NCBI RefSeq assembly: GCF_900199635.1
Contig: NZ_LT962687.1
Coordinates: 853,501-917,500, forward strand
Direction: 5' to 3'
Length of the DNA: 64,000 nucleotides
Origin: Anaerotruncus massiliensis (ex Togo et al. 2026)
GTDB lineage: Bacteria; Bacillota; Clostridia; Oscillospirales; Ruminococcaceae
The translations under genes were made by a program, and so were the position numbers. Within the stretch, counting starts at the first letter, position 1. Each line of letters starts with the position of its first letter. A model generated the notes under the pieces. The model was given only the letters and a program-made list of their open reading frames with translations. It did no database searches and was not told where the DNA came from. Below are positions 3,041-47,672 of this stretch, piece after piece.

Positions 3041-3394
3041 TCAGTCGAACGCCAGGTAGGGGGAAATCTGCTCGAGCGTCTTCTCGCCGATGCCGCTGAT
3101 CTCCAGAAGCTGTTCGGGGGAGTCGAGCGTACCGTAGTCGCGGACGTAGGCGCGGATCGCCCCGGCCTTTTCCGGCCCGATGCCGGGGAGCTGCGTCAGC
3201 TCCTCCTCGGTGGCCCGGTTGATGTGGACGACCACCCCCTCCAGCTCGGGGTAGGGGTTTAAAACGGGCGCGGGGGAAAAGGCGATGCTGGCGGGGACCC
3301 GGGGCGGCGCGGTGGCGACGTTATAGCAGATGAGCGCGGCCGCGAGAAGCCCCGCGGCGGCCCAGATGAGGCCCGTGCCCGACCGCTGTTTCAT
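3041..3394 (-). CDS. ComEA-like helix-hairpin-helix DNA-binding membrane protein
   Basis: 117 residues from the ATG at 3394, which has a G-rich ribosome binding site; the ATG at 3418 has none. An N-terminal membrane segment (about residues 7-25, GLIWAAAGLLAAALICYNV) is followed by a proline-rich linker and a C-terminal tandem helix-hairpin-helix domain: INRATEEELTQLPGIGPEKA and a second hairpin ISGIGEKTLEQI. This is the ComEA layout, a membrane-anchored receptor that binds incoming DNA during natural transformation, but it lacks the longer SLBB domain of Bacillus ComEA. No comEC lies next to it in this window, so a role in competence is inferred from the family only. Confidence 0.75.
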   Translation of the reverse strand: MKQRSGTGLIWAAAGLLAAALICYNVATAPPRVPASIAFSPAPVLNPYPELEGVVVHINRATEEELTQLPGIGPEKAGAIRAYVRDYGTLDSPEQLLEISGIGEKTLEQISPYLAFD

Positions 3395-19826: not shown

Positions 19827-20909
19827 TTAGGAAAATGAACCTTCTCGCTCCATGTCCAGCTTGTTCGCCATTTCCGTTTGCCTTGTGGGAAACAAGTGGG
19901 CATAGCGATAGGTGATGTCGATGCTTTCATGCCCTACCCGGTCAGCGATTGCCAGGGCTGTAAAGCCCATATCAATCAGCAGGGAAATGTGCGAATGTCG
20001 GAGGTCATGTATCCTGATTCGCTTCACGCCAGCCGCTTTCGCACCCCTGTCCATTTCATGGTGGAGATAGTGTTTGCTGACAGGGAAGATCCGTTCGTCC
20101 GCCCCGGCGCTGTAAAACATCTTTAAGTAGTCCTCCATCTCTCCACAGAGGAATTTGGGCATCTTAATGACACGGTTGCTCTTTTTCGTCTTGGGAGTGG
20201 TAATCACGTCCTTGCCCTTGAGGCGCTGATAGGATTTGTTGATGGACACTGTACCCGCCTCAAAGTCGAAGTCAGACGGGGTGAGGGCCAGCAACTCCCC
20301 CTCCCGGATACCGCACCAGTAGAGCATTTCAAAGGCGTAGTAGGAGAGGGGCTTGTCCATCATGGCGTCGGCAAATTTCAGATACTCGTCCTTCGTCCAG
20401 AACAGCATTTCACGCCGTTCCTCCACACCCATGTTCCCGGCCTTGGCCGCAGGATTGACCTGGAGGCCGTAGTAGCGGACAGCATGGTTAAAGAGGGCGC
20501 TCAACTGATTGTGGACGGTTTTGAGATAGGTAGGGGAGTAGGGCTTTCCTTTGGTGTCCGTCAATCCCCGGATTGCGTTCTGCCAATCCATCACGTCCTT
20601 GGCGGTAATTTCCGACAGTTTGCGCTTTCCAAAATACGGTAGGATTTTCTTCTGGATGATGCTCTCTTTTGTCAGCCAGGTGTTCAATTTCAGCTTGGGC
20701 TTCATGTCCTTCTCATAAAGTTGTGCGAAACTCTCGAAGGTCATATTTACGTCGGCCTGTTTCTGCATAAGGAACTCTCGCTCCCACGCCTGGGCCTCCT
20801 TTTTGGTGGCAAAGCCACGCTTTAACTTCTGCTGGCGCTCTCCTTTCCAGTCCGTATAGCGGAACTGGACGTACCAAGTGCCGTTGGCCTTGTTCTTAAA
20901 CGCTGCCAT
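19827..20909 (-). CDS. int: Site-specific tyrosine recombinase / integrase
   Basis: 360 residues. The N-terminal AP2-like arm-binding segment (WYVQFRYTDWKGERQQKLKR) and SAM-like core-binding domain precede the catalytic domain, with the first Arg in YWCGIREGELLAL, HDLRHSHISLL (H-x-x-R), a late His in DRVGHESIDIT and the nucleophile in ITYRYAHL. It integrates the element at the 3' end of guaA. The ATG lies three bases after the excisionase stop, showing coupling. A consensus promoter upstream of the excisionase gene drives both. Confidence 0.95.
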   Translation of the reverse strand: MAAFKNKANGTWYVQFRYTDWKGERQQKLKRGFATKKEAQAWEREFLMQKQADVNMTFESFAQLYEKDMKPKLKLNTWLTKESIIQKKILPYFGKRKLSEITAKDVMDWQNAIRGLTDTKGKPYSPTYLKTVHNQLSALFNHAVRYYGLQVNPAAKAGNMGVEERREMLFWTKDEYLKFADAMMDKPLSYYAFEMLYWCGIREGELLALTPSDFDFEAGTVSINKSYQRLKGKDVITTPKTKKSNRVIKMPKFLCGEMEDYLKMFYSAGADERIFPVSKHYLHHEMDRGAKAAGVKRIRIHDLRHSHISLLIDMGFTALAIADRVGHESIDITYRYAHLFPTRQTEMANKLDMEREGSFS

Positions 20910-45870: not shown

Positions 45871-45899
45871 TTGACAAAAACGGTGGGAACGATTATAAT
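45871..45899 (+). promoter_or_regulatory. Consensus promoter of the tRNA-Asp-Phe-Gly-Cys operon
   Basis: TTGACA (45,871-45,876), 17-base spacer, TATAAT (45,894-45,899), 34 bases before tRNA-Asp. It has the same perfect hexamers as the other tRNA operon. Confidence 0.9.
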
Positions 45900-45933: not shown

Positions 45934-46010
45934 GGCCCGGTAGTTCAGTTGGTTAGAACGCTAGCCTGTCACGCTAGAGGTCGTGGGTTCGAGCCCCATC
46001 CGGGTCGCCA
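45934..46010 (+). tRNA. tRNA-Asp (GTC)
   Basis: 77 nt with encoded CCA; identical to the gene at 2506-2582. First gene of the second tRNA operon. Confidence 0.95.
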
Positions 46011-46014
46011 GTTT

Positions 46015-46090
<76 letters not shown>

Positions 46091-46093
46091 AAC

Positions 46094-46169
46094 GCGGGTT
46101 TAGCTCATTTGGCAGAGCGCCACCTTGCCAAGGTGGAGGTAGCGAGTTCGAGCCTCGTAACCCGCTCCA
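46094..46169 (+). tRNA. tRNA-Gly (GCC)
   Basis: 76 nt with encoded CCA; identical to the gene at 2322-2397. It is followed by a hairpin AAAAGAGG/CCTCTTTTTT (about 46,173-46,210) that may partly terminate before tRNA-Cys. Confidence 0.95.
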
Positions 46170-46233
46170 ACAAAAAGAGGTCGGGAATGGAAACTTCGCG
46201 CCTCTTTTTTCATATACTGCGGTATATGATAGC

Positions 46234-46308
46234 GGCGCCGTAGCCAAGCGGTAAGGCAGAGGTCTGCAAAACCTTCATTCACCGGTCCGATTCCGGTCGG
46301 CGCCTCCA
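46234..46308 (+). tRNA. tRNA-Cys (GCA)
   Basis: 75 nt with encoded CCA. Acceptor GGCGCCG pairs with CGGCGCC, anticodon loop CTGCAAA (GCA), T-arm CCGGTCCGATTCCGG. Terminator CCCCCGCTGC/GCAGCGGGGG follows within 12 bases. Confidence 0.94.
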
Positions 46309-46868
46309 AAGGACAAAACCCCCGCTGCGAAAGCAGCGGGGGTTTTTGCGCATCCGCGGCGTGGAAAGCAAAAAATCTGCAAAACCAGCATTTACCGGTC
46401 CGATTCCGGTCGGCGCCTCCAAAGGACAAAACCCCCGCTGCGAAAGCAGCGGGGGTTTTTGCGCATCCGCGGCATGGAAAGCAAAAAATCTGCAAAACCA
46501 ACATTTACCGGTCCGATTCCGGTCGGCGCCTCCAAAGGGCAAAACCCCCACTGCGAAAGCAGCGGGGGTTTTTGCGCATCCGCGGCATGGAAAGCAAAAA
46601 ATCCGCAAAACCAACATTTACCGGTCCGATTCCGGTCGGCGCCTCCAAAGGACAAAACTCCCGCTGCGAAAGCAGCGGGAGTTTTTGCGCATCCGCGGCG
46701 TGGAAAGCAAAAAATCCGCAAAACCTTCATTCACCGGTCCGATTCCGGTCGGCGCCTCCAAAGGACAAAACCCCCGCTGCGAAAGCAGCGGGGGTTTTTG
46801 CGCATCCGCGGCATGGAAAGCAAAAAATCTGCGAAACCAACATTCACCGGTCCGATTCCGGTCGGCGC
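46309..46868 (+). repeat. Five tandem 113-bp degenerate tRNA-Cys plus terminator units
   Basis: The T-arm CCGGTCCGATTCCGG starts at 46,282 (true gene), then 46,395, 46,508, 46,621, 46,734 and 46,847, an exact 113-bp period. Each unit has a tRNA-Cys 3' half from the anticodon loop to CCA, a hairpin terminator with T-run, and a 28-base segment in place of the tRNA 5' half that still matches it at 13 positions without gaps. The fourth terminator has a paired change (CTCCC/GGGAG) that keeps its stem. The last unit is cut before the CCA and runs into a different terminator. These are tRNA pseudogene copies; none can fold as a full tRNA. Confidence 0.85.
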
Positions 46869-46912
46869 AAAAACAGGGCGGCGGATCCATACGGACCCGC
46901 CGCCCTGTTTTT
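46869..46912. terminator. Terminator closing the tRNA-Cys array and the creatininase-family gene
   Basis: AAAAACAGGGCGGCGG and CCGCCGCCCTGTTTTT pair around a GATC-centred inner part; T-runs on both strands suit the convergent arrangement. Confidence 0.8.
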
Positions 46913-46913
46913 G

Positions 46914-47672
46914 TCAGCCCGGGAAGGCCGTACCGACGATCTCGACGAGGCGTGGGAGAACCGCCTCGACGATCAGCCGCCCCTTTTCCGCCGAGGAGGA
47001 ACGCGCGGTCGCGAGGACCCCGGTGGAGGGAATGGCGTCTTTATCGATGGGGTATTTGAAGTAGGGGCAGGGCGCGGCGCCCTTTGAATCGACGATGAGC
47101 TCCTCCCGCACAAGCTCGGGCGCGAAGTAGAGCATGAGGGAGGTCTCGGTGATCGCCGCGTGCTCGAACGCCCAGCCGGGGAAGGGCACCTCGTCGAAGA
47201 GGCGGGCGATCAGTTCCTCGGGCATGGGGTCCCACCAGTTGGAGAGCAGGAGGGTGACACGGTCCCCATAACGGGCGCTGCACAGGTCCATCGCCTCGAT
47301 GAGGAAGGGGTCGTTTTCAAAGTGCGCGTTCATAATGAAGATTTTGGTGAAGCCGTCCCGCACAAACTCGTCGAACAGGTCGGAGGCGAGCTGCTGGAGC
47401 GTCGCGCCGTTCAGGTCGATCGTGCCGGGAAAGAGGGGCCCGCCGCCGCTCAGGGGCTTCGATTTATAGCCGTAGGAGAGGGTGGGGGCGACCACGCCGC
47501 CGACCGCCTGGGCGAGCCGGCAGGCGAACTGCTCGGCGAGCACCGCGTCCACGCAGAGCGGCAGGTGCGGCCCGTGCTGTTCGGTCGCGCCGACCGGGAG
47601 GATGAGGACCTGGTCCTTTTTCGCCTCAAATTCCCGCCAGGTCATCCGTTCCATCTTGACTTCTTCAAACAT
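46914..47672 (-). CDS. Creatininase family amidohydrolase
   Basis: 252 residues. The metal ligands fit creatininase: PVGATEQHGPHLPLCVDAVL near the N-terminus, FIMNAHFENDPFL in the middle and EHAAITETSLMLYFAPEL later. Family members hydrolyse cyclic amides (creatinine, FAPy intermediates in F420/riboflavin synthesis). Next to cytosine deaminase and purine-type genes, a role in opening a base-derived ring is plausible but unproven. It is divergent from codA. Ribosome binding site AAGGAGGGC. Confidence 0.85.
   Translation of the reverse strand: MFEEVKMERMTWREFEAKKDQVLILPVGATEQHGPHLPLCVDAVLAEQFACRLAQAVGGVVAPTLSYGYKSKPLSGGGPLFPGTIDLNGATLQQLASDLFDEFVRDGFTKIFIMNAHFENDPFLIEAMDLCSARYGDRVTLLLSNWWDPMPEELIARLFDEVPFPGWAFEHAAITETSLMLYFAPELVREELIVDSKGAAPCPYFKYPIDKDAIPSTGVLATARSSSAEKGRLIVEAVLPRLVEIVGTAFPG

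Follow-up and report, generated by a model that had tools for sequence, protein, structure and literature searches.

In the tyrT region of Escherichia coli MG1655, where the rttR RNA and tpr are annotated, Tandem Repeats Finder (TRF) reports a repeat of 178 bp in 3.1 copies whose unit holds the last 19 nt of tRNA-Tyr. These tyrT repeats are co-transcribed with the tRNA. According to PMC4986893, E. coli frees RtT RNAs from the transcripts of tyrT and of further tRNA operons, so that tyrT-type repeats can make RNA; the same paper has RtT detected in Actinobacillus by Northern blotting and links it to the stringent response. Here we describe a tandem array of five tRNA-Cys pseudo-copies (c1 to c5) in Anaerotruncus massiliensis, located in a 64,000-nt stretch of contig NZ_LT962687.1 (hereafter the window), whose anatomy resembles the tyrT type.

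As in tyrT/tyrV, the first repeat unit begins before the intact tRNA gene has ended, and the 3′ end of the tRNA with its CCA recurs shortly behind the gene. The tRNA 3′ end is complete with its CCA in units c1 to c4, while c5 stops short of the CCA. The array differs in build from the tyrT repeats, its nearest known counterpart: the tRNA is Cys, the tRNA part of the unit measures 46 nt instead of 19 nt, and four of the copies are followed by an intrinsic-type terminator of their own, one such hairpin also preceding c1. It gave no match to the RtT RNA family at the gathering score or at E ≤ 5, and no account of bacterial tandem tRNA-end repeats was found among the titles and abstract openings of the open-licence papers listed. 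The array adds a second case beside the tyrT repeats, outside E. coli.

A 113-bp tandem array behind tRNA-Cys

The intact tRNA-Cys(GCA) gene (46234–46308, + strand; ARAGORN, and Rfam RF00005 with 62.6 bits) is the last gene of an Asp-Phe-Gly-Cys tRNA cluster on the + strand of the window (ARAGORN). Among the matches listed (one of seven is unlisted), it is the only intact tRNA-Cys match seen in the genome. A single TRF array covers positions 46263–46868, its first base lying inside tRNA-Cys, with a period of 113, 5.4 copies, 95% matches, 0% indels and a score of 1093. The tandem array is real and far beyond chance, and an earlier note on this DNA, which had described an intact tRNA-Cys followed by five copies at an exact 113-bp period, was right on both counts. 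With T1 to T5 standing for terminator hairpins, the order is tRNA-Cys, T1, c1-T2-c2-T3-c3-T4-c4-T5-c5. Open reading frames (ORFs) in the array change frame at each unit because 113 is not a multiple of 3, and the three array ORFs tried matched no Pfam family.

Delimited on the + strand by sequence, TRF and alignment (for c4, unit comparison in place of TRF), the copies c1 (46347–46421), c2 (46460–46534), c3 (46573–46647) and c4 (46686–46760) each comprise a diverged 5′ part of 29 nt and a 46-nt tRNA 3′ half ending in CCA; the variable tract of c4, TTCATTC, is that of the intact gene. The last copy, c5 (46799–46868), stops at ..GGCGC, without the CCA and without a terminator of its own. The 3′ halves are 91–98% identical to the intact gene (over 46 nt in c1–c4 and 41 nt in c5), and the block of identity begins in the anticodon loop (TCTGCAAAACC). 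The 29 nt preceding the 3′ half are one and the same sequence in c1 to c5, apart from one site that varies. Where the earlier note had each copy keep the 3′ half and a terminator and lose its 5′ half to divergence, the 3′ halves do run from the anticodon loop, but the terminator is found in only four of five; likewise the 5′ part has diverged from the tRNA, but not from copy to copy.

The RF00005 match is confined to 46234–46305, inside the intact gene, and ARAGORN likewise calls this gene only. The copies gave no tRNA match with the Rfam covariance model even at E ≤ 5, and no tRNA was predicted in them by ARAGORN. Compared with shuffled sequences, the copies taken alone fold with z values of −0.18 to 0.45, against −2.29 for the intact tRNA. 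The pseudo-copies fail as functional tRNA genes, and the covariance-model scan that the earlier note had suggested gave the outcome that it foresaw.

Behind the intact gene stands T1 (46315–46346, + strand), a hairpin with a 14-bp stem, an A-run before it and a T-run after it (−27.8 kcal/mol, z −7.4). The same sequence recurs in T2 (46428–46459) and T5 (46767–46798), both also at −27.8 kcal/mol. In T3 (46541–46572) an A·C mismatch in the stem (46550) lowers the stability to −22.4 kcal/mol, and T4 (46654–46685), at −25.7 kcal/mol, carries a compensated pair (C-G to T-A) at unit positions 58 and 79, that is, 46659 and 46680. Inverted repeats and folding, and for T3 and T4 the comparison of units, define these hairpins on the + strand, and each of the five is followed by five T. 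Their designation as + strand terminators rests on the hairpin and T-run in the sequence; a scan with a consensus terminator pattern returned eight terminator-like sites on the − strand only and did not recover T1–T5 on the + strand. The − strand sites fall in four of the five hairpins, T3 being the exception. The compensatory pair announced by the earlier note is thus present in T4. Its further suggestion that the hairpins are maintained draws weak support from this one pair and is countered by the broken pair of T3 and by the count of variable sites, which is 3 for the 32 nt of the hairpin and 5 for the 46 nt of the tRNA half: with one compensated and one broken pair, and hairpins as variable as the rest, there is no clear sign of better upkeep. 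Within a palindrome, template switching is another route to a compensated pair.

Unit joints and proposed origin

The tetramer GCGC occurs at 46235, 46348, 46461, 46574, 46687 and 46800, with a spacing of 113. The first of these belongs to the 5′ acceptor strand of the intact tRNA and the second, 113 positions further on, lies directly behind the T-run of T1. At the other end, c5 terminates at the GCGC of the 3′ acceptor strand (46865–46868), which is followed by AAAAACAGGG. Among the units, 10 sites in 113 are variable, and in addition to those of the hairpin and the tRNA half they comprise one in the 6-nt linker and one in the remaining 29 nt. Unit positions 19–46 are invariant, which leaves the T arm and acceptor unchanged in all copies as far as each extends. 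Five pairs of sites show four-gamete incompatibility, and c4 has the TTCATTC tract of the intact gene yet holds another site in common with c3. The pattern points to exchange among the units and with the intact gene, or else possibly to repeat mutation at a site.

We consider it rather probable that the array is a tRNA-Cys pseudogene family which originated in a local tandem duplication of tRNA-Cys and its terminator as a whole, followed by 5′ decay, amplification and exchange, and that its copies are most likely unexpressed and without a dedicated function. The ancestral order would have been tRNA-T1-TTTTT-GCGC-AAAAACAGGG, in which slippage or unequal exchange at the 4-bp GCGC microhomology may have duplicated the tRNA together with its terminator. 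Mutation or replacement would then have erased the 5′ half of the founder duplicate, which homologous unequal exchange between 113-bp units would have amplified. Exchange among the units and with the intact gene presumably continued, and a late GCGC-GCGC deletion may have removed the CCA and terminator of c5. Because the 5′ part is alike in all five copies bar one site, its divergence would have preceded the amplification, while the uniformity of the 3′ halves and terminators would be due to exchange of the units with one another and with the intact gene. As befits a duplication, the copies are adjacent, on the same strand and co-linear with the source including its terminator, in a 113-bp unit bounded by GCGC. 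Amplification with gene decay had been one of three explanations offered by the earlier note, and it is the best supported of them, by the GCGC joints, the shared diverged 5′ part and the four-gamete incompatibility.

Also in favour of this origin are the indel-free period, the failure of the copies to match the tRNA model, and the confinement of spacer and array to this genome among the congeners examined. The 5′ part adds a hint: aligned without gaps, it has 13–14 of 29 identities to tRNA nt 1–29 (shuffle fraction 0.018–0.037), and 14 or more identities to the tRNA 5′ part are reached by 838 of the 63971 window 29-mers. Other observations weigh against this origin. When only those 29-mers with GCGC at positions 2–5 are taken, 92 of 859 reach 14; outside GCGC, which is a frequent tetramer here, the 5′ part matches the tRNA at 10 of 25 positions. 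Local alignment with gaps allowed scores these two sequences no higher than shuffles (fraction 0.54). The similarity in register between the copies and the tRNA 5′ part is therefore suggestive, not proof of descent. Moreover, a 5′ part that is about half different beside a 3′ half more than 90% identical is not what plain decay gives, so that one has to assume either that the intact gene converted the 3′ half or that the founder had its 5′ half replaced. Among the relatives, none showed an intermediate stage.

Under the duplication origin, the array is mostly ordinary genome dynamics with an unusually readable anatomy, for which a function is not needed as explanation; at most, the copies supply extra terminators between two convergent transcription units. 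It offers a readable case of a tRNA gene and terminator that would have been duplicated at a 4-bp microhomology, decayed, amplified and homogenised, and it reminds annotators that a 3′-half tRNA sequence is not necessarily the trace of a mobile element. Arrays of this kind are rare in the sample, and here the joints are readable, which gives the case a moderate interest.

Occurrence in other genomes

The genus set comprised 11 genomes including this one, of which one (G010) had no tRNA-Cys match at E 0.001. In the 1500 nt downstream of tRNA-Cys, none of the nine congener loci (G001–G009) showed a tandem repeat, nor did the T-arm 20-mer recur there in exact form. With up to 3 mismatches allowed, the spacer was found in one of the 11 genomes, in this array only, and as an exact pattern it was absent from the wider genome contig collection, from which the own genome may be left out. 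At the level of the family, 230 of 247 genomes had some match to the query at E ≤ 1, and a run of 3′-half matches was seen in this genome alone, among the matches listed (to about E 1e-10, with at most 3 candidates scored per genome).

A scan of 103 distinct tRNA-Cys loci, drawn from 60 further regions together with the genus and family loci, gave TRF rows within 1000 nt of tRNA-Cys at 11 loci; the sample favoured strong matches to this tRNA, and at 100 of the 103 loci the sequence reached 300 nt or more downstream. One of these is the 3′-half array described here, one is an 85-bp repeat in three copies with 13 nt of the acceptor end (genome G052, locus L008), and the remaining nine had no tRNA-Cys 3′-half match scoring 13 or more. 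tRNA-Cys ends 86–116 bp apart occurred in 61 stretches of the genome contig collection and in none of the viral contigs. Of the 61, five contained tRNAs according to ARAGORN, with tRNA-Cys at or beside the match in three (L178, L198 and L208); the other 58, mostly from GC-rich genomes, are probably chance matches. The array was not seen in any other genome examined.

The related arrangements are of different build. Clostridium brassicae (L178) has two tRNA-Cys genes side by side in a Val-Asp-Phe-Gly-Cys-Cys cluster, which is likewise an adjacent duplication; both of its copies, however, are predicted tRNAs, and no array of broken copies is listed there. The 85-bp array of G052 and a single hairpin in Clostridiales Firm_07 (L208) also place an acceptor end behind tRNA-Cys, but they consist of an inverted T-arm copy with inner hairpins and not of a direct 3′ half with a terminator. 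In both (L008, 1618–1871; L208, 7395–7449) an inverted repeat lies behind the tRNA-Cys terminator, and its outer stem pairs the T-arm/acceptor end with the reverse complement. The inner hairpins are predicted to form a three-way junction in L008, where the repeat stands in three tandem copies, and one long stem in the single copy of L208; in G052 the inverted repeat is confined to that place.

Isolated decayed copies were also met. In Ferrimonas aestuarii (L198, 5360–5600), a single decayed tRNA-Cys copy with an intact 3′ end lies between tRNA-Cys and its terminator. In genome G014 (L022, ~3180–3290), a decayed tRNA-Gly stands between tRNA-Gly and tRNA-Cys, in a stretch that is present twice in that genome. 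The shared 13-mer TGGAAAGCAAAAA preceding this decayed tRNA-Gly was tried as a common motif and rejected, the exact 13-mer being present in 19 of 61 genomes, that of A. massiliensis included. Of the 27 loci scanned for tRNAs (L036–L062), 23 had none; tRNAs lay within ~150 nt at the two G014 copies (L047 and L060) and several hundred to more than 1000 nt away at L045 and L049. A stretch resembling TGGAAAGCAAAAA on the other strand was noticed by eye behind tRNA-Cys in L012.

Alternative explanations and surroundings of the array

Integrating elements provide another possible source of tRNA 3′ fragments (attL/attR, Islander-type), and the identity block of the array, running from the anticodon loop to the 3′ end, is like theirs; the anticodon loop is among the crossover sublocations given in PMC4383910. 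The founder might have been a 3′ half left at tRNA-Cys by a tyrosine-integrase element that was later lost, its att fragment being amplified and the copies perhaps serving as spare attachment sites. We judge this unlikely, as no element or island lies between tRNA-Cys and the fragments, which follow at 113-bp spacing with a terminator at four of five. Nor is a PF00589 gene near: in a search restricted to tyrosine recombinases, the nearest genome match was an ORF at window 19827–20909, ~25 kb upstream. The spacer has no counterpart elsewhere in the genus at up to 3 mismatches, an exact 19-base pattern over the joint of spacer and half is unmatched in viral contigs, and both the GCGC register and the GCGC end of c5 are left unexplained. 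Fragments with no element between them also fail the island filters as described in PMC4383910. The reservoir of integrase attachment sites put forward by the earlier note is not supported, given the distance to the nearest PF00589 match, the lack of an island and the joint pattern missing from viral contigs. By analogy with RtT, for which rttR in the MG1655 tyrT repeats is the precedent, the units could instead be transcribed into stable small RNAs whose 3′ end resembles that of a tRNA and which would influence the processing or aminoacylation of tRNA or the response to amino-acid starvation. The T arm and acceptor kept in every copy, the CCA of c1–c4 and a consensus promoter ahead of the tRNA cluster (TTGACA-17-TATAAT at 45871–45899, from a promoter pattern scan) would suit such RNAs. 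We nevertheless find them improbable, well below the att-site origin: the strong hairpin and T-run of T1 separate the tRNA from c1, another such hairpin follows each of c1–c4, and the pattern scan found no promoter-like site inside the array. The copies, moreover, fold no better than shuffles, no Rfam family except tRNA reached its gathering score, RtT being absent from the E ≤ 5 list too, and 28 invariant nt are unremarkable given 10 variable sites in 113. The tRNA-half-like RNAs that the earlier note named as its third possibility face the same T1 hairpin (−27.8 kcal/mol) and the same lack of an internal promoter-like site. If small RNAs did arise from the array, the role of tyrT-type repeats could be tested in a second, unrelated system. 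Very doubtful, in our estimate, is the bolder proposal of a maintained reservoir coupled to tRNA-Cys by gene conversion, or of an array giving rise to RtT-like tRNA-half RNAs, each capped by a terminator, whose task would be to report or titrate the processing of tRNA-Cys; if true, it would mean similar solutions at tRNA-Tyr in E. coli and, in other form, at tRNA-Cys of other Clostridia.

Selection might instead act on the hairpins themselves: stacked as roughly symmetrical terminators, they would shield the tRNA operon from the convergent creatininase-family gene, and the tRNA halves would be carried along as passengers. Five near-identical hairpins and a further palindrome at 46868–46913 do stand between the convergent units, one pair is compensated, and the − strand terminator-like sites coincide with four of the hairpins. 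Against this, the stem of T3 is broken, the hairpins, with 3 variable sites in 32 nt, are no more constant than the remainder of the unit, the compensated pair has template switching as another possible source, and none of the nine other loci of the genus has a tandem repeat; selection for such a stack seems to us very improbable. An assembly artefact, finally, deserves hardly any credence. Short tandem repeats are known to trouble assemblers and the array is based on one assembly of the species; yet it lies within a 3.03-Mb contig of a seven-contig genome, its units differ from one another at 10 positions and it ends at a distinct junction. The duplication of tRNA-Cys with its terminator stays the origin that we favour.

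The palindrome at 46868–46913, an inverted repeat unrelated to T1–T5 and probably a terminator, directly adjoins c5 and is situated between the array and the creatininase-family gene (46914–47672, − strand; Pfam PF02633), which is convergent to the tRNA cluster. Further upstream in the window, the ORF at 19827–20909 (− strand) encodes a 360-aa tyrosine integrase, a hint that this part of the window holds an integrated element.

The tRNA genes for Asp, Phe and Gly are present in two window clusters, at 2322–2663 (− strand) and 45934–46169 (+ strand), with equal model scores. Several relatives' draft contigs begin or end beside tRNA-Cys, probably because of such repeated tRNA clusters.

Directly upstream of tRNA-Cys, a palindrome of the type CCATATAC-loop-GTATATGG is found in the genus, at 46210–46229 in the window and at loci L002, L004, L007 and L010–L015. 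The window version has T-A for the outer C-G pair, L002 is altered on both arms, and in most loci a terminator-like hairpin stands between tRNA-Gly and the palindrome. The palindrome might serve as an operator or as a hairpin for processing.
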